Shown here piece by piece: positions 3,277 through 33,772 of a DNA stretch of 35,125 bases. The notes under the pieces are model-generated. The model was not told the DNA's origin. It searched no databases and saw only the letters and a program-made list of their open reading frames with translations. The position numbers and the translations under genes were made by a program. This DNA comes from Deltaproteobacteria bacterium (GTDB taxonomy: Bacteria > SAR324 > NAC60-12), in assembly GCA_011522845.1 (NCBI GenBank), contig WTIF01000292.1, forward strand, positions 1-35,125, written 5' to 3'. Numbering within the stretch: position 1 is the first letter of the stretch; each line of letters starts with the position of its first letter.

Positions 3277-4532
3277 TACCTTACCTTGAAATAGAGGATC
3301 AGAGTGATCACAAAAAGCCAGATGGAGCGCAAATGAAAATGCCAGACCACTCGACTATTGACTTCTTGAGGAGTGAGCAGCTTGTTGTCTTCTGGAACAG
3401 AGCGCACTCCAAGTTTTTCCAACATCATCAACCAGACTGACTTCACTTTGGGAGCTTCCGGATGATAGGTCCAAAGTTGTTGCAGATGATGATGATAGGG
3501 AGATTTCAGAAAGAAGCGATAAGTTTCCGCAAAATCCCTACCCCGCAAACGCAACATTGCTCGAAAAAATCCTCGCTGAATGATTGTTGAGAGAGCAGAG
3601 AAAACAAACAGTCCTCCGACAATCGGCAGGAACAACTCAGCTTTCACAAAGATGAACATTGCTGAAACAACACTGCCCAGCGCCAGGGCTCCGAGGTCAC
3701 CCATGTAGATCTGGGCGGGAGGTGCGTTGTACTTCAGAAAGGCAAAACCTGCGCTGATGATGGCAGCAGCAAGCACAGCCAATTCTTTGATATCGTGAGA
3801 AAGATGAGGAATTTTTAGCTTTGTGGCAAAGTCTAAGTCTCCTCCAATGTAGGCCACAGCTCCTACGAAGAGTGTACAAGTCATCAAAGGTACAGTGGCC
3901 AGGGTGTCCATCCCATCGGTCAAGTTGACCGCATTCGCGCCACCCACGATGACCAGCAGCATGAAGGGAATGAACAGATACTTTGGCAGATACGGGTACC
4001 ATTCATCGATAGGCACAAAAGGAACAACGAGATGTCCATCAATATCGACGTATAAGTACAGCCCTAAGACAACTAGCAGAGCCACTGCAAATTCAGCAAC
4101 CAACCGGCCCTTGCCACTAATGCCATCAGCCTTATCACTATAGCTCTTGCGGGTTTCTTCCCCTCTCTCGATGCGCCGTTTGTGAAAGACTTTTGCCAGA
4201 TCATCCAGCGCTCCAATCAGCCCGAAGGAAAGCATGATCAGGAGCAGGGCGATGATGTACTGATTCAGAGTCGTCCAGAGCAGCGAAGAAATTAGGATGC
4301 CTACGATCAACACCCCGCCTCCCATAATCGGGGTTGCTCCGGTGTACGGCCCTGTCTGTCTGCTAGCTGCTGTGAAATCGGAGGTGATTCCGCGACGCCG
4401 AAAAAGCTGTATTGTCATCGGCATCAGCCAGGTGATGATCAGATAAGCTGTTAAGAACGTCATCCCCCCGCGGAAGAAGACGGACTTGAAGATCTGATAA
4501 GGCAACAAGGAATAGAGCAGGCTAGCGAGCAA
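3276..4532 (-). CDS. mraY: Phospho-N-acetylmuramoyl-pentapeptide-transferase (divergent MraY)
   Basis: 418-aa polytopic protein with GALDDLAKV, SGKGRL, NLTDGMDTLA, FLKYNAPPAQIYMGDLGALALGS and PYHHHLQ motifs of the MraY family. Confidence 0.85.
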   Translation of the reverse strand: MLASLLYSLLPYQIFKSVFFRGGMTFLTAYLIITWLMPMTIQLFRRRGITSDFTAASRQTGPYTGATPIMGGGVLIVGILISSLLWTTLNQYIIALLLIMLSFGLIGALDDLAKVFHKRRIERGEETRKSYSDKADGISGKGRLVAEFAVALLVVLGLYLYVDIDGHLVVPFVPIDEWYPYLPKYLFIPFMLLVIVGGANAVNLTDGMDTLATVPLMTCTLFVGAVAYIGGDLDFATKLKIPHLSHDIKELAVLAAAIISAGFAFLKYNAPPAQIYMGDLGALALGSVVSAMFIFVKAELFLPIVGGLFVFSALSTIIQRGFFRAMLRLRGRDFAETYRFFLKSPYHHHLQQLWTYHPEAPKVKSVWLMMLEKLGVRSVPEDNKLLTPQEVNSRVVWHFHLRSIWLFVITLILYFKVR

Positions 4533-8556: not shown

Positions 8557-10568
8557 TGTTCTCCTGAATTTGCTTCTTCCGGATGGTCTCGAAATTCTCC
8601 GAATAGATTTCCACCTTCCGGATCAACCTGCATGACCTCAATTCCAAGTTGGGTGCCCTTGGGACGAGAACCCGGTAGCTGACAGACTAGGCCTAGATCT
8701 TCCAACTCGATTTCAATTCGCTGATTCAACTCCCGGCGAACACGTGCCGCAAAGACGTGCCCCAGATGCTGCCCTACGTAGCGCAGTTTCCAGTAACGCT
8801 CAATTTCTCGTTCGGTTCGAGCATAGGATCGTTGACGCAACTCAATTTCAGACGCCCAAGCCATCAGCTGTTGCTCGCTGAAGAGTGCTTGTTGATGCTG
8901 TAGTGCGTGCCGAAGTTGCCATTGACAGAGGAGATCCACAAAGCGTCGAATTGGGGAGGTGACCTGCATGTATACCGAACAACCCAGCCCCGAGTGAGCA
9001 CCTGGATTGACTGCTAGACGGGCCCCTTCGATGTTAACATGATCCATCGTCAGTTTTTCACCTTCTACAGGTTCTTGCGTGATCTCGTAAGGCGCCTGAG
9101 TACGAAAGATACCGGGTAGGCGAGCTCGTTCAAGCTGTTCTCCTGCGAGTTGATTGACAAGAATCGCCAATTCCTGCACGAGACTGTTCGCTGGACTTTC
9201 CCTATCTCGTTCGAGCACACGAATATTTTCTGGGTCTGTAATGTCTAACTCAAACTCCTTGCGCTCTATGTCCAAGGCTCCATTTGCGAGCCGCAGCTTG
9301 CGTTGAGCATCACAACAGTTGAACAGCATTCCCCAGAAAGAATCCTGCTGCACGACAAACGAGTCAACTTCCTCGTAAGTTAGATTCTGTTGTACAACGA
9401 TTTGCTCATGCTCGATGCCATGAAGCAGGCAAGTGCCATCCAGAAACAATTGCAAATGGAAGCTCATCACCGTTTTGGGAGTGCCAGCTCGAAGAGAAAA
9501 ATAATCATTGGCCAGGACCTCCGGAAACATCGGGTAAGTGTCCTCAACGGTGTAGACCGAGGAGATTCTTTGTTCTGCCAGTGAAAACAGGGAGTCTTCC
9601 GGATCAATATGCTGGGTGAGATCAGCTATGTGAACACTGAGTTCGATACTGCGTTCTGTCCAGCTTTTTACTGAGATCGCATCATCATAGTCCTTGGTTT
9701 TGGCAGCATCGACAGTAAAGACAGGGCGTTCTTCCGGTAGGCTTGAGAAATTGACCTGGGCTTTTTGTTGCAGTATGTCAGCTGCCTGGAGTGCTTCCTC
9801 TGGAAAATCCAAAGCGACCTGAGCCTTGCGTAGTTGCAGTTCCCCCCAACGAACCGGTTGTCCTGCTTTCTGGAGCAAGCGACGAAGTTGTTGTTCATCG
9901 GCTTGCTCGTGGCTGGCACCCAAACCGATCCAGGGAGCCAACTCCTTCCAATATCCTGAATCCCTGCCGAAAAACAGTAGGGATCTCAACTGTTCCAGCC
10001 AATCTTGCTGGGCTTGAGTTTGTTCTTCAGGACTTGGCCATTTACCCAATTCCAATTCTTCAATCCACTTACGAACATTTGCTTCTCGTTGCTGGCGGGC
10101 CAGCTCACGCTCTCGTCTTTGATGAAGTTGTTGGTGCTCTTCCTCCGTCAAGGGTGTGTAGGTGTTCTGGCGGTTGCGGCGAAACCAGTCTTCCGTATTC
10201 TGCAACGCCAGCAACAGAGCCACCTGGTTAGCCAGCACTTCTGGTTCTTCCAGAAAATCTTGAGCGATCTCATCTAGAGTCAGCTCGGCGCCTGGTTCGA
10301 CCAAGTCATGAATGGTAGGCAGATCAATTTGTGCAGCCAGACCTTCTGCTTCTTCCAAGATACGGGTGAGTTGCTGAAGGGCTCCGCCCTCGGCTATCTG
10401 CTGACTGGGTTGGGACCAAAGAATTCGGTTTGTTGGCAGAAATTGTTCACGGCCCAAAACAGGCTGCACAACCAGTTTGTTCTTCTGAAGTGCTCGGACC
10501 CAACCAAATTCTAGTCGGCTATCTCGGTGATAGGCGCAATAATGATGAATGAGACGATCAGGTTCCAT
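8553..10568 (-). CDS. RNB-domain 3'-5' exoribonuclease (RNase II/R family)
   Basis: 671 aa; catalytic VDAAKTKDYDDAISV, TYPMFPEVLANDYFSL, NPGAHSGLGCSVYMQVTSPIRRFVDLLCQWQL; ATGA-type overlap with panB. Confidence 0.9.
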   Translation of the reverse strand: MEPDRLIHHYCAYHRDSRLEFGWVRALQKNKLVVQPVLGREQFLPTNRILWSQPSQQIAEGGALQQLTRILEEAEGLAAQIDLPTIHDLVEPGAELTLDEIAQDFLEEPEVLANQVALLLALQNTEDWFRRNRQNTYTPLTEEEHQQLHQRRERELARQQREANVRKWIEELELGKWPSPEEQTQAQQDWLEQLRSLLFFGRDSGYWKELAPWIGLGASHEQADEQQLRRLLQKAGQPVRWGELQLRKAQVALDFPEEALQAADILQQKAQVNFSSLPEERPVFTVDAAKTKDYDDAISVKSWTERSIELSVHIADLTQHIDPEDSLFSLAEQRISSVYTVEDTYPMFPEVLANDYFSLRAGTPKTVMSFHLQLFLDGTCLLHGIEHEQIVVQQNLTYEEVDSFVVQQDSFWGMLFNCCDAQRKLRLANGALDIERKEFELDITDPENIRVLERDRESPANSLVQELAILVNQLAGEQLERARLPGIFRTQAPYEITQEPVEGEKLTMDHVNIEGARLAVNPGAHSGLGCSVYMQVTSPIRRFVDLLCQWQLRHALQHQQALFSEQQLMAWASEIELRQRSYARTEREIERYWKLRYVGQHLGHVFAARVRRELNQRIEIELEDLGLVCQLPGSRPKGTQLGIEVMQVDPEGGNLFGEFRDHPEEANSGEQ

Positions 10569-10585: not shown

Positions 10586-11164
10586 TCAGGCGATATTGGG
10601 CCCATTGTCGGGCGAATGGGGAGCGTTTTGCTCAAGAAGGCGCATGGCGCGGGTGTGCTCGGATGCAGGAACCAAAACTTTGACAGTCTGACTTCCTAGG
10701 GGATGCACTAGAATGCTGGCATTGTGTCTGTTAAGTAAGTTTACTGGGATGCCATGCTCTTCCAAAAGAGCTTTCACTAGGTCTGCTTGGGGTAAAAAAT
10801 TAGTTTCCAGAACCAATTGAAGGCCAGGGGTATTGTTTGTGGGCTCTTCCGCTTGTTGTTTGCGCTGTCGGTATGAATTAAGATCAACCACCTTAGCGTC
10901 AAGATGGTTGGGTGAATTAAAGAAATTGTGCTCCCAGGGTTTCCAAAGAGTTAATGCACCGGCAAGCGCCCCAACCACAACCAGTAAACTGAGGAAATCA
11001 CGAAAAGGCATGATGATCAGAAGCAGCAGAAAAGCTCCCCCAATGCTGCCCCAGAGCTTGGCGGGGCTGTCAGGCCAATAGCGACTTGCTCTCAATAACT
11101 GAAGTTTTTTGGCAGTTGCATCGAAAAGCTTGCCTCCAAATTGGGAGAAGTTAGTTGAATGCAT
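10586..11164 (-). CDS. Membrane-anchored DUF2007-domain (putative signal-transducing) protein
   Basis: 192 aa; hydrophobic LWGSIGGAFLLLLIIMPFRDFLSLLVVVGALAGAL; C-terminal LVLETNFLPQADLVKALLEEHGIPVNLLNRHNASILVHPLGSQTVKVLVPASEHTRAMRLLEQ resembles DUF2007. Confidence 0.65.
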   Translation of the reverse strand: MHSTNFSQFGGKLFDATAKKLQLLRASRYWPDSPAKLWGSIGGAFLLLLIIMPFRDFLSLLVVVGALAGALTLWKPWEHNFFNSPNHLDAKVVDLNSYRQRKQQAEEPTNNTPGLQLVLETNFLPQADLVKALLEEHGIPVNLLNRHNASILVHPLGSQTVKVLVPASEHTRAMRLLEQNAPHSPDNGPNIA

Positions 11165-11418: not shown

Positions 11419-12663
11419 ATGAAATTCCATCTCCTGTTGATGTTGCCCTTCGTCTTGATTCCAAGTGTTGTAGTCTCCGAATCAGCCCCAAGTGAAGCAC
11501 AACTGGCGCTACTGGGAGAAGAGTACAATACAATGCGGCAGATGCGCTATCGTCTCAAGGAGTTGCTGGAACAACAGGAATTTGCAGACAAACTAAATCA
11601 AGCAGATGATATTTTTGCAGATTTTCAACAACTTGAACAGTGGCTCGCTCAGTTGGACGAAAATCCAGAATCCTTGTCAGAAGTGATGGAAATGCTGGAA
11701 GAATTTGAACAACGCCTAGCCGAACTCTTAGAGCAGCAGCAGGCTATGGCAGAATTCCTTCCCACTCCTCCAGAGCAGTCCAATCAGCCAACTGAGGAAA
11801 TGGAACTCTCTTCGTTGATGGAACAAGTGCGCCAACTCCTTCAAGAGAACAAGCGAGCAGAAGCGCAAGAACTACTCAACCAGATGCTCTCAGCATTTCA
11901 GCAGCAACAGGAACAGCTTCAGCAGAGTACCTCTCAGTACTATGATGAGAAATATTCTGAAATGATGGAACAGTTCAATCAACTACAACAACAACTAGCT
12001 GAAGCCCTGCGTCAGGAGTCCAAGTTGAGGGAGCAATTGGAGGAGATGATGCGCCAGCAACAAAGCTCCCAGATGAGTCAAGGTCCTACTCCGCAGGACT
12101 TACAGCAGCAACAGCAACAGATTTCTGAGATGATTGAGCAAATGCAGAAAATGCTGGAGAAAATGGCGAATGGTCAACTCTCAATGGACGAATTGGCCCA
12201 GATGCTTGCAAATGCACAACAATCTTCCGAAGAAGCCTCTCAAATGTTAGGAGGTAATCAGCCCGGGGACCAGCCTGGTCAGCAGGAAGGACAAGGGCCA
12301 GGACAACAACCCGGTCAGCAACCTGGAAAAGGACAGGGGCCTGGTTTCGGTTCTGGAAGCGGACCAGGAGTAGCAATGCCTTCTGTGCAACAGACCGAAC
12401 AATATTTACAACAGATGCAGGGGCGTATGCAGCAGATGCAAGGACAGATGCAACAACTTGCGCGTTCTGGACAACGAATGGCGAACCGCTCTCAAGGTCA
12501 GCAGGAAGGACAGTATTGGAGTGAAAAAGGTATCAAACCACTCAAATTCGACTATGAATTTCAAGCTTCCCCAGAGTACCGCCAGGCTATTCAATCAGCA
12601 AACCAACAGGAAACATCGCCCACCCCACGTCAGCAGGAATATCTCCGTGAATTGATCCGCTAG
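11419..12663 (+). CDS. Exported Gln/Glu/Met-rich coiled-coil protein with Pro-Gly-Gln low-complexity segment
   Basis: Signal-peptide-like N-terminus MKFHLLLMLPFVLIPSVVVSES; about 88 of 414 residues are Gln by manual count; GDQPGQQEGQGPGQQPGQQPGKGQGPG and MQQMQGRMQQMQGQMQQ; GGAG RBS. Confidence 0.75.
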   Translation: MKFHLLLMLPFVLIPSVVVSESAPSEAQLALLGEEYNTMRQMRYRLKELLEQQEFADKLNQADDIFADFQQLEQWLAQLDENPESLSEVMEMLEEFEQRLAELLEQQQAMAEFLPTPPEQSNQPTEEMELSSLMEQVRQLLQENKRAEAQELLNQMLSAFQQQQEQLQQSTSQYYDEKYSEMMEQFNQLQQQLAEALRQESKLREQLEEMMRQQQSSQMSQGPTPQDLQQQQQQISEMIEQMQKMLEKMANGQLSMDELAQMLANAQQSSEEASQMLGGNQPGDQPGQQEGQGPGQQPGQQPGKGQGPGFGSGSGPGVAMPSVQQTEQYLQQMQGRMQQMQGQMQQLARSGQRMANRSQGQQEGQYWSEKGIKPLKFDYEFQASPEYRQAIQSANQQETSPTPRQQEYLRELIR

Positions 12664-13097
12664 TCCGGCTTCTCCTCCATTTCAATCAGTCGTTCACGCA
12701 CAATTCCATAGAATCTTGTCGGCTCTGTGGAACCATCGTAGCGCCAGCCCATGTGGATTTGACAACCTGAGCAATACTGAACCGTCCAAGCATAGCCAGC
12801 AAACCAGGTGTCCTTCCAGACTGAGGGGGAACCATCTCGTAGGTTCTGACACCAACTAAAGGTAAGAATCTCAAAGAGCAGTCCATCAGGATTCGCAAAG
12901 TAGTGATTGGGGCTGTCTCCCTGAATCACCAGCAGGCAACTCGCATCACTAACTGGAGTATGGCAGTTAGCACAAACATAGCGCGAGGAGCTAGGCTTTT
13001 CTTGTTGCTTGTCTTTTGTTTTTTGAGTTTCTTCTGGTAGTAAGCCGGGTTGTACGAAGAGCATCTGGATTTGATTTACTTTGGGCGACTCTTCCAA
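12660..13097 (-). CDS. Single-domain CULT protein (bacterial cereblon thalidomide-binding-domain homologue)
   Basis: 145 aa; YVCANCHTPVSDAS...NHYFANPDGLLFEILTFSWCQNL...SVWKDTWFAGYAWTVQYCSGCQIHMGWRYDGSTEPTRFYGIVRERL; C42xxC45/C109xxC112 and W98/W104/W118/Y120 match the CULT zinc site and ligand cage. An alternative start at Met12 is possible. Confidence 0.9.
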   Translation of the reverse strand: MEESPKVNQIQMLFVQPGLLPEETQKTKDKQQEKPSSSRYVCANCHTPVSDASCLLVIQGDSPNHYFANPDGLLFEILTFSWCQNLRDGSPSVWKDTWFAGYAWTVQYCSGCQIHMGWRYDGSTEPTRFYGIVRERLIEMEEKPD

Positions 13098-15724
13098 AGT
13101 TGCTGTAGCAAGGTCATTCTGCTTTCATCCGTCTTGCTTTCGCCGATCCCTACTAGTGGCTTGACGGAATTTGAAATCTGCTTTGCAACAGGTGAAGTTT
13201 CTGTCGACTCTGCAACGTGGAAGTGCACATCTCGTTGAGGAAACGGAATGACAATACCTAATTCTCTGAACCGCTCATCGATCTGGAGCCGAATTTCCGT
13301 TTCAGAAATCATCCCGAAATCTAAAGTCGTATGATAGTATAGTCGAAACATTAGAGCGCTGTCTCCAAAATCTACAAAATGTACGACGGGAGCAGGCACA
13401 GCGAGGACTTTTGGATGCTGTTGGGCCATTGCCAGCATCTCTTTACGAATCAATTCTGGATCAGTTCCATAGGCAACCCCGATATTGATGGTACGACGGA
13501 CTCGTGGATCCTTGTAGGACCAGTTTGTGACAGTCTGACTGATGAATTCTGAGTTTGGGATGATCAATGAGGCATTATCATAGGTCTGTACTAGGGTTGA
13601 GCGAACATTGATTTTTTTGACAACTCCCCAGATTCCATTGATCTCAACAACGTTTCCTACCTGAATCGGTCGTTCAAACAGCAGAATAAGCCCACTGACA
13701 AAATTATTGAAAATATTCTGTAATCCAAAACCCAAGCCGATACCCACTGCCCCAAACGCAACCGCCAGGGAGGCGCTGTTTACACCCAAGGCCCCCAAGC
13801 CAAATAGTAGCCCAATTCCCCAGACAGCATAGGCTCCAATAGTAGCTACAGACTCTTGAGTACCCTCTTCGATGTGGCTGTGTGCCATCAGTCGTTGCTT
13901 GAAGAGGTAGCGCCAGAGGAGCACAAACACTCGGGTGATCAGCAAAATCAAGAAGGCGTAGACAAAGCCGATCAGGCTCAATTCTAGGCCACCTACCGTC
14001 AATGGTTGACGGATCGCCTCCCAAGTGTGCAGGAGCACTTCCTTCTCTGCGCCCCAAGCCAGCAGAAGACCTAACCCAATCAAGCCTGCTCCAATCAACC
14101 AAGCAATTCTTCCAATCAGCCAATTGGTGGACTGCTGTCCCAGGGTTTGGACATCAACCTCCAGTATGTCGGTTTGAAGGGGTTGTGCATCCGAACGGGC
14201 ATCCCATTCCTGAAGACACTTCCAACAAAGGAAGCCCCAGAATAGGACAATCCCTGTCTTGCTCAAAGAAACTGACCAGTAGAGACTGAGGTAAGAATAA
14301 CCCGCTAGTTCTAAAAGTAATCCCCCTCCAATAATTAGTGTTGGGAGTGAACCCAGGATAAGGCCCAAGGTAGTCTGCCTGAGAGCTGGCCAGTGATCTT
14401 GAAGCTGTACCCAACGACGCAGTTGACGTCCCAGATCAACGCTCAAAATCAGCACTCCGATACCGAGTACGAGTCTGCCAATGAGCAGCAGTATACTGTT
14501 GCTACCCAGCAGCTGTTGCAATAACAAATAGCTCAGACCTAGACTGCGCACCCAGCGGAGTAGGCGATGTGCCACCAAACGAACGGGTACAAAATTATTG
14601 TCATCGAATCGCTCCAGTGCTCGAATACACCAGAATACGAAAATCCATAGCAGCAGCATGTTGCGAAAGAGCACCAGCAATGGATTCAGGTTTGCCAGGA
14701 TCATGCTCTGTTCACAAGCCCACAATAGGCTGATTGCGCCGATTGGCATCAGCGACTGTAACAGTAAGTGTAAGGTCCAGTTTTGCCAGATCGGCAGATT
14801 AGTTTCTTTGAGCCAGTTTAGGAGGTTGTGTTTGGCTTTTCGCAAAAGGATCAGGCCAATCACGAACAGGAATGGGAAGGTAATCAGCAAGAATCGATAG
14901 CTTTCCCACAATCCCAGGATGCCGGATTGAATTTCTGCAGGTTGACTCCAGCGACCCACAAGTCGCAGGAAGCGCTCTAGCTCAGCAGCGATCTCAGTCG
15001 GCCCAAGTTTGGCTAGTGAGATCTCCTGCTTTTCAAAGAGCATTTCTTGACGGCGTTCCTCCAGGCGCCTCTGAAGTTGTTCCAGTAATTCTTTGTTCTC
15101 ATCCCGAGAAGCTTGTAGACGAGTAAGCTCCTCTTTTTTGATCGTAAGTAGTTGATCGAGATTTTTTTGGTTGTTTTGTTGTGTCAGGCTGATCTTGTCG
15201 ACGAGTGTCAGTAGCGAGCTGGGAATACTGGCCTGAGGCAAGTTTTTCAACTCATTAACCTGTTGTTGATAGACTTCTTGGCGGACTTGTGCACGAAGTT
15301 GTCGTTCTTCCAGAGGTTGTATGGACTTGGCCCCTTGAGTGGCGGCTGTTCCAAGCTCTTGAAGAGCCTGCTGTTGTCGAGCGATTCCTTGGCTTAACTC
15401 ATCAATTGTCGTACTGCTAACTAACAAAAGGTTACGCAGGGTCGAGGCCTGCAATCGATAAAGACTAAATTGCTGTCCCAGTCTTTGAGTTTCCAGCTGC
15501 GCTTGACTGAGTTCACTATTCAGCTGACTGGCAATGCCATCCTCCGTCATTTGAGTCTGCTGGAAAGATTCCTGAAGCCTTGATTGCTGCTGGAGATTAT
15601 CTTCCGTTTTGGAGATTTGTTGTGCCCTAATGAGTGCTGGTGCTATTGATAAGAAACCGATCAATAACCAAAGACATACCAATGCAGTGGGAAAGGCCAA
15701 CTGGCCTGTCGTTCGAGTCGTCAT
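13076..15724 (-). CDS. MscK/KefA-like large mechanosensitive channel (MscS domain C-terminal)
   Basis: 882 aa; signal-like N-terminus, long coiled-coil region, multiple TM helices, then LAVAFGAVGIGLGFGLQNIFNNFVSGLILLFERPIQVGNVVEINGIWGVVKKINVRSTLVQTYDNASLIIPNSEFISQTVTNWS. Confidence 0.93.
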   Translation of the reverse strand: MTTRTTGQLAFPTALVCLWLLIGFLSIAPALIRAQQISKTEDNLQQQSRLQESFQQTQMTEDGIASQLNSELSQAQLETQRLGQQFSLYRLQASTLRNLLLVSSTTIDELSQGIARQQQALQELGTAATQGAKSIQPLEERQLRAQVRQEVYQQQVNELKNLPQASIPSSLLTLVDKISLTQQNNQKNLDQLLTIKKEELTRLQASRDENKELLEQLQRRLEERRQEMLFEKQEISLAKLGPTEIAAELERFLRLVGRWSQPAEIQSGILGLWESYRFLLITFPFLFVIGLILLRKAKHNLLNWLKETNLPIWQNWTLHLLLQSLMPIGAISLLWACEQSMILANLNPLLVLFRNMLLLWIFVFWCIRALERFDDNNFVPVRLVAHRLLRWVRSLGLSYLLLQQLLGSNSILLLIGRLVLGIGVLILSVDLGRQLRRWVQLQDHWPALRQTTLGLILGSLPTLIIGGGLLLELAGYSYLSLYWSVSLSKTGIVLFWGFLCWKCLQEWDARSDAQPLQTDILEVDVQTLGQQSTNWLIGRIAWLIGAGLIGLGLLLAWGAEKEVLLHTWEAIRQPLTVGGLELSLIGFVYAFLILLITRVFVLLWRYLFKQRLMAHSHIEEGTQESVATIGAYAVWGIGLLFGLGALGVNSASLAVAFGAVGIGLGFGLQNIFNNFVSGLILLFERPIQVGNVVEINGIWGVVKKINVRSTLVQTYDNASLIIPNSEFISQTVTNWSYKDPRVRRTINIGVAYGTDPELIRKEMLAMAQQHPKVLAVPAPVVHFVDFGDSALMFRLYYHTTLDFGMISETEIRLQIDERFRELGIVIPFPQRDVHFHVAESTETSPVAKQISNSVKPLVGIGESKTDESRMTLLQQLWKSRPK

Positions 15725-16343: not shown

Positions 16344-17036
16344 ATGCGTATTGGGATCCTCTGCGCAATTCCTGAAGAGTTGCGACATTTCTCTCCAAGC
16401 TCACTGCCTGCGGCTCGATTAGGGGGGAGAGATTATTTTCAAGGGAAGAATGGTTCCCACGAACTGACACTTGTTGAATCTGGTATTGGTAAGGTCAACT
16501 CCGCCGTGGCCTCGACTGTCCTGATTCAGCACTTCAGCTGTGAACTACTGATCTTTTCTGGGGTTGCTGGTGGTTTGGATCCAAGCCTACAGATTGGGGA
16601 TCTGGTGATTGCAGAGGAATTATGGCAGCACGACTACGGAACGATCATTGACCAAGAGTTGATTGCGCATCGAGCTGGTACTTTGCCCATGGGAATTCCG
16701 AAGGAGAATCCACCTTTCAGACTGGACGAGGAACTGAAGGCCAAGATCCAGCAAGCTTATCCTGATGCTCGCTTTGGCAGGATCCTCTCAGGAGATACTT
16801 TTCTCAATTGTAAGGAAACCCGCCAGCAACTCTTCGAAAAATTCCAAGCGCAGGCGATAGAAATGGAAGGCGCAGCTATCGCGCAGGTTGCGGAACAATT
16901 CGGTGTTCGATGTATGATCGTCCGAAGTTTGAGCGATCTTTCTGGAGAAGAGAGTATGGAAGACTTCCCCACCTTTCTGAAAGAGGCTGCTGCCAGGAGT
17001 TACCGAGTCGTGAACGCGATCCTCGGAGTTCTGTAA
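16344..17036 (+). CDS. mtnN: 5'-methylthioadenosine/S-adenosylhomocysteine nucleosidase
   Basis: 230 aa; MRIGILCAIPEEL, VESGIGKVNSAVASTVLI, FSGVAGGLDPSLQIGDLVIA, GRILSGDTFL, AIEMEGAAIAQVAEQFGV, VRSLSDLSG. Confidence 0.92.
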   Translation: MRIGILCAIPEELRHFSPSSLPAARLGGRDYFQGKNGSHELTLVESGIGKVNSAVASTVLIQHFSCELLIFSGVAGGLDPSLQIGDLVIAEELWQHDYGTIIDQELIAHRAGTLPMGIPKENPPFRLDEELKAKIQQAYPDARFGRILSGDTFLNCKETRQQLFEKFQAQAIEMEGAAIAQVAEQFGVRCMIVRSLSDLSGEESMEDFPTFLKEAAARSYRVVNAILGVL

Positions 17037-33392: not shown

Positions 33393-33772
33393 ATGCGGAG
33401 TCGGAGATAAGCCGGGTTCTGTTCTCTTCTAAGAGCCGTGATCATTTATCTAGGATTGCTGTTACCAGCAACCTCCAGCATCCTACCCGATCGCCAGACG
33501 GGCCGCCTGATCACGATCCTATTTGGACTTGCAGCGGATGGGGTTTACCCTGCCAGGTCTGTCACCAGCCCCGCGGTGAGCTCTTACCTCCCCGTTTCAC
33601 CCTTGCCTGTGCCGAAGCCATCGGCGGTCTATTCTCTGTGGCACTTTCCGTCGGCTCACGCCGCCTGGCCGTTAGCCAGCATCCTGCCCTGTGCTGCCCG
33701 GACTTTCCTCTCGCAGCTCGAGAATCATGAGTGATTCCCTCGCTACCAGCGATCACGTATCTAACTCCGCAA
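33393..33772 (-). ncRNA. rnpB: RNase P RNA, bacterial A-type (ends approximate)
   Basis: Minus-strand sequence contains GAGGAAAGTCCGGGC, AGGGTGAAACGG, GGTAAACCCC, CAAATAGGA and ACAGAACCCGGCTTAT; P1 stem formed by 5' GCGGAGT (33764-33770) and 3' ACTCCGC (33395-33401). Confidence 0.95.

Follow-up and report, generated by a model that had tools for sequence, protein, structure and literature searches.

Does an open reading frame of a SAR324 bacterium encode a relative of the CULT domain of cereblon, and what would such a protein do in a bacterial cell? Thalidomide-class drugs and most of the protein degraders now being developed are directed at cereblon (CRBN), a CRL4 substrate receptor. Bacterial members of the CULT family, which was described in 2014-2015, have so far served chiefly as crystallography stand-ins. 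The locus considered here, at 12660-13097, lies in a stretch of 35,125 nucleotides that was analysed as a whole and is called the window below. A first-pass annotation had proposed that it encodes a cereblon-like protein with an intact zinc site and aromatic cage.

A stand-alone CULT-domain protein

The minus-strand reading frame is present as annotated, with a TTG start and 145 codons, and the E-values of its product lie far beyond chance. In phmmer searches the product matched MsCI4 with E 4e-22, covering residues 34-139 of 145, and eukaryotic cereblon chains with E 9e-14 to 1e-11. MsCI4 is MGR_0879, cereblon isoform 4 of Magnetospirillum gryphiswaldense (PDB 4V2Y). A family profile built from 14 homologues, with MsCI4 left out, retrieved MsCI4 first (1e-32) and cereblon next (2e-25), whereas yippee and MsrB reached merely 0.02-0.07; a full-domain MsrB match was sought with the same profile, but the similarity spans just about 27 residues, at E 0.05 or worse. 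The proposed CULT-family membership is thus borne out by both kinds of search. The profile comparison that the annotation had suggested as a check gave a single Pfam family at its cut-off, Yippee-Mis18 (PF03226; E 7e-6), exactly at the gathering score of 26.6 bits. Because this match is only at threshold and none of the NCBIfam models matches the protein, it is plausible that a gene finder would call the product hypothetical, as had been predicted.

Judged by these matches, the product of the frame is clearly a CULT-domain protein of the stand-alone kind, akin to MsCI4 and cereblon. Nothing but the CULT domain makes up its 134-145 aa (depending on the start), with neither a LON domain nor a secretion signal: a Pfam search for LON in it found none, the chain is too short for LON plus a DDB1-binding region, its N-terminus, MLFVQPGLLPEETQKTKDKQQ, does not look like a signal peptide by eye, and no membrane helix is evident. 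AlphaFold2, run on three sequences (that of the window and those of two nearly identical relatives), gave pLDDT 37 and pTM 0.25; this model was discarded, and the CULT fold is assigned because the protein is homologous to solved structures. We regard the presence of the fold and cage as nearly certain. Single-domain bacterial CULT proteins, mainly from deltaproteobacteria, are covered by Lupas et al. 2015 (PMC4287342), and the present protein is therefore a further member of a known group.

The gene and its immediate neighbours are as follows.

12660..13064, minus strand: CULT-domain protein from the preferred ATG start, 134 aa (phmmer and Pfam matches, start aligned with homologue starts, dN/dS)
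12660..13097, minus strand: the same frame from TTG, as in the first-pass annotation, 145 aa; its first 22 nt lie within the end of mscK
13076..15724, minus strand: mechanosensitive channel of the MscK type, 882 aa, immediately upstream (Pfam MS_channel_2nd and MS_channel_3rd; best NCBIfam model MscK, below its cut-off)
11419..12663, plus strand: convergent neighbour, its product Gln-rich and coiled-coil-like; shares 4 nt with the CULT frame at the CULT stop codon

The ATG at 13064, which sits 11 nt past the mscK stop codon, is more likely to be the start than the TTG at 13097. It is favoured because homologue starts align with M12 of the 145-aa form (MLFVQP versus MFFVRP) and because every change among the four members of the genus in codons 1-11 of that form, some of which lie inside the last part of mscK, is non-synonymous. 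No clear Shine-Dalgarno sequence was seen at either candidate start, and the ATG therefore stays a preference. Residues are numbered below in the 134-aa form unless stated; the 145-aa form adds 11 (C31 = C42).

Zinc site, aromatic cage and pocket rim

The zinc, hairpin, rim and cage positions are as follows.

12963..12974, minus strand: first zinc motif C-A-N-C, C31/C34 (C42/C45 in the 145-aa form); cysteines invariant in both alignments
12888..12893, minus strand: hairpin Asn-Pro (MsCI4 Asn50-Pro51); Asn invariant, Pro nearly so
12810..12815, minus strand: rim residues K84-D85, with MsCI4 Glu76-Phe77 at the equivalent place
12804..12806, minus strand: cage Trp 1, W87 (MsCI4 W79, human W380)
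12786..12788, minus strand: cage Trp 2, W93 (MsCI4 W85, human W386)
12762..12773, minus strand: second zinc motif C-S-G-C, C98/C101 (C109/C112 in the 145-aa form); cysteines invariant
12744..12746, minus strand: cage Trp 3, W107 (MsCI4 W99, human W400)
12738..12740, minus strand: cage-base Tyr, Y109 (MsCI4 Y101, Phe in human)

The residues first named in 145-aa numbering (C42xxC45, C109xxC112, W98, W104, W118 and Y120) are all where the annotation placed them. The four zinc cysteines, the three cage tryptophans and the hairpin asparagine are invariant among the aligned homologues, and the base residue is aromatic throughout (Y, F or W). Conservation of the hairpin-tip motif is a feature of the CULT family (PMC4287342). 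In MsCI4, glutarimide is caged by Trp79, Trp85 and Trp99 and hydrogen-bonded to the backbone of Phe77 and Trp79, and the Tyr101 hydroxyl provides an extra bond that human cereblon lacks (PMC8900816). By analogy, Y109 would supply this third hydrogen bond.

The conservation noted in the annotation holds for the four cysteines, three tryptophans and tyrosine; a difference that the annotation missed lies at the rim, where Glu76 of MsCI4 is replaced by Lys and Phe77 by Asp. Glu76 is conserved with human Glu377 (PMC8900816). K84 is common to all four genomes of the window genus, whereas every other aligned homologue has E or D there. D85 corresponds to Phe77, whose role is a backbone hydrogen bond.

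Constraint, distribution and phylogeny

Purifying selection on the CULT core is very strong. The dN/dS of the core against a same-genus locus (L020) is 0.010, close to that of the neighbouring ribosome recycling factor gene frr (0.008), and across all pairs of the four genus members it ranges from 0 to about 0.04 (0.037); the N-terminal arm is under looser constraint. Whole-gene values against the same locus are 0.038 for rpsB, 0.122 for mscK and 0.374 for a DUF2007 gene. GC and GC3 of the CULT gene are the same as those of its neighbours, so nothing suggests recent acquisition in the window genus.

CULT genes were found in 17 of the 52 class genomes examined, about two thirds being without one. 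Four other phyla yielded 0 of 17, one clear case in 77, 0 of 291 and 0 of 4, in searches that had no positive control and whose empty answers show little. A scan of a genome collection with a single-sequence query recovered two near-identical loci only, those near relatives that have names bear the label Deltaproteobacteria or proteobacterium, and searches of plasmids, phages and viral contigs gave no CULT relative. Assemblies of carriers are bigger than the others (median 4.4 versus 2.8 Mb, p 5e-5, uncorrected for kinship and completeness).

In two genomes of the window genus the CULT gene may be missing through an assembly gap: one contig stops within the convergent neighbour just short of the CULT position (G005), the other within the RNB-domain gene (G004). 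A weak match in G139 was rejected as noise, its frames being stop-broken and opposite a large ORF. In G010 (L070, ~3850-3990, minus strand) a stop-broken N-terminal CULT fragment lies right after a CheY-like gene, a place that an intact CULT gene occupies in related genera; it is apparently a decaying copy.

The tree splits the CULT proteins into two groups (100/99): those of family f1, including that of the window, and a second made up of MsCI4, the proteins of f3 and the one from another phylum. The window clade would thus be distinct from that of MsCI4; with 133 columns, a midpoint root and one long row, the tree is a pointer to this and no proof of separate origin.

Gene neighbourhoods

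The tight, same-strand mscK-CULT arrangement is found in four genomes of the genus, being kept in L018, L019 and L020. In genera g2 and g4, and partly in g5, the order is response regulator/ATPase, YfiO-like, TPR, unknown, CheY-like, CULT, CT398-like zinc ribbon and putative aminopeptidase. In g3 and g8 it is pnp, a secreted-type protein and CULT. In family f3 the CULT gene directly precedes ppiD on the same strand, beside pheA (six genomes, four genera); pheA adjoins ppiD without CULT in G041 and G042. The gene thus has at least four unrelated neighbourhoods in its class. As neighbours change by subclade, it has no fixed operon partner and behaves as an accessory gene across several contexts, outside any single conserved operon. 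Neither a protease or degradation gene as a steady neighbour nor an adjoining biosynthetic gene cluster was found in the neighbourhoods examined.

Other features of these regions were recorded in passing. The secreted-type protein between pnp and CULT is conserved in two genera (L022 3009-3866 in G007; L021 ~9215-10110, minus strand, in G012), and the G007 protein has no Pfam match. Pfam matches are also lacking for a protein some 183 aa long, encoded ahead of CULT within the response-regulator/TPR cluster (L026 5287-5838, conserved in L024, L025 and L027), and for two conserved proteins downstream of ppiD in family f3 (L030 11046-12071 and 12145-13206). In the window, the DUF2007 gene (10586-11164), with its relaxed dN/dS of 0.37, is flanked by the CULT region on one side and a gene for an RNB-domain exonuclease on the other, and a class A RNase P RNA (33393-33768, minus strand) begins 1 base past the end of an opposite-strand MinD/ParA-like gene.

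A possible reader of protein damage

For the window protein itself we computed homology, motif conservation, selection and the lack of extra domains; its fold and its cyclic-imide or uridine binding are carried over from MsCI4, and we infer ligand binding by the window protein, its natural ligand and any downstream step. Zinc on the four cysteines would pin two beta-sheets together, and the cage of three Trp and Tyr would bind cyclic imides with rings of five or six members, the contacts being hydrogen bonds from the backbone and from the Tyr hydroxyl. MsCI4 binds thalidomide and uridine with low-micromolar affinity and folds upon binding (PMC4449219). By analogy, the window protein very probably binds glutarimide or uracil-type ligands in vitro. 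The likeliest natural ligand would be a C-terminal cyclic imide (aspartimide or glutarimide) arising from Asn or Gln damage, so that a cytoplasmic protein might read proteins that have been damaged or cleaved, and do so with neither the Lon-like domain nor the DDB1 ligase of eukaryotic cereblon. Human cereblon binds C-terminal cyclic imides and PCMT1 is able to make them, according to work cited in PMC13001092.

We hold a damage-reading role in the bacterium only tentatively, at somewhat less than an even chance. In its favour we count the matches to MsCI4 and cereblon, the invariant zinc and Trp residues, the ligand binding described for MsCI4 and human cereblon, a PCMT homologue in this genome and the strong constraint on the core. 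Counted against it are the patchy presence of CULT, the lack of a steady degradation neighbour, the rim lysine, and the failure of PCMT to track CULT. A PCMT homologue occurs in the window genome and in most of its class, and co-occurrence was rejected as a functional link: 15 of 17 CULT carriers have one versus 25 of 35 non-carriers (Fisher p 0.29; 0.08 counting a partial match). The absence of CULT from about two thirds of class genomes makes its role look dispensable. Our literature searches for bacterial CULT function found, in the library searched, no paper testing a role in a bacterium, and those pairing SAR324 with cereblon found nothing.

Among other roles, the protein might sense or buffer uridine, uracil or a related nucleobase in RNA turnover or pyrimidine salvage. 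MsCI4 binds uridine, but neither thymidine nor cytidine (PMC4449219), in G007 and G012 a single secreted-type protein separates pnp from the CULT gene after it, and the window has an RNB-domain exonuclease gene three genes off and a phosphorylase-family gene at 16344. Such RNA-turnover neighbours are not common to all subclades, however, and the discoverers of uridine binding by MsCI4 found no biological context for it (PMC4449219); we consider this role rather unlikely. Ranking after it, and likewise doubtful, is the reading of another cyclic imide or lactam, either an imide-bearing natural product such as an aspartimide RiPP or a small metabolite. The MsCI4 cage takes many cyclic compounds (PMC8900816), bacterial aspartimide RiPPs exist and their contact with cereblon is proposed speculatively (PMC13001092), and the distribution of CULT is patchy, but no biosynthetic gene cluster adjoins it in the neighbourhoods examined.

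The envelope offers a third set of partners: CULT might serve the adjacent MscK-type channel as an accessory; in relatives, PpiD and the cluster of TPR/BamD-like lipoproteins would take the place of the channel. The tight mscK-CULT pairs of four genus genomes and the position directly before ppiD in six f3 genomes of four genera speak for this. We nevertheless think it improbable, for the partner varies with subclade, ppiD stands beside pheA without CULT in G041 and G042, and the protein has no signal peptide or membrane helix evident by eye. Much the least probable is that the protein belongs to another beta-tent type (yippee, MsrB or GFA) and has some other activity. The matching Pfam model does bear the name Yippee-Mis18, yet the E-value of cereblon beats those of yippee and MsrB by more than 20 orders of magnitude, all three Trp of the cage are in place and the MsrB catalytic cysteine has no counterpart in CULT (PMC4287342).

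A composite of the damage-reader proposal with the envelope neighbours, in which stand-alone CULT proteins read C-terminal cyclic-imide damage and the recharged-rim clade found here is linked to envelope quality control (PpiD, BamD-like and MscK neighbours), is unlikely. If bacterial CULT proteins are damage readers, the cereblon degron would predate the eukaryotic ubiquitin system.

Relation to known CULT and beta-tent proteins

Alone, 12660-13097 is one further member of a known family and of modest interest. The locus adds a well-constrained member of what the tree suggests is a separate clade, and the recurrent neighbours of its relatives (mscK, ppiD, pnp and the response-regulator/TPR cluster) make a role testable. 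With yippee/Mis18 and MsrB, its beta-tent relatives, the protein shares zinc CxxC motifs, but sequence similarity to them is very weak (profile E 0.02-0.07). It resembles the bacterial single-domain CULT group of Lupas et al. 2015 (PMC4287342) in domain make-up, size and taxonomic label (a nearest named record is 'Deltaproteobacteria bacterium UBA6967'), and we found no defining difference from that group.

Like MsCI4, with which it shares 40% identity over 103 aligned residues, it is a stand-alone CULT domain, and the two agree in their zinc motifs, the three Trp, the base Tyr and the hairpin Asn-Pro; unlike MsCI4, it falls in the other tree group (100/99), carries Lys-Asp at the rim instead of Glu76-Phe77 and has one extra residue before the hairpin. 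The cage and zinc site are also those of the C-terminal CULT domain of CRBN. In contrast to cereblon, the protein has no LON domain or DDB1-binding region, its base residue is Tyr rather than Phe and no ubiquitin system is implied; where cereblon has its LON domain upstream of CULT, this locus has a mechanosensitive channel gene.
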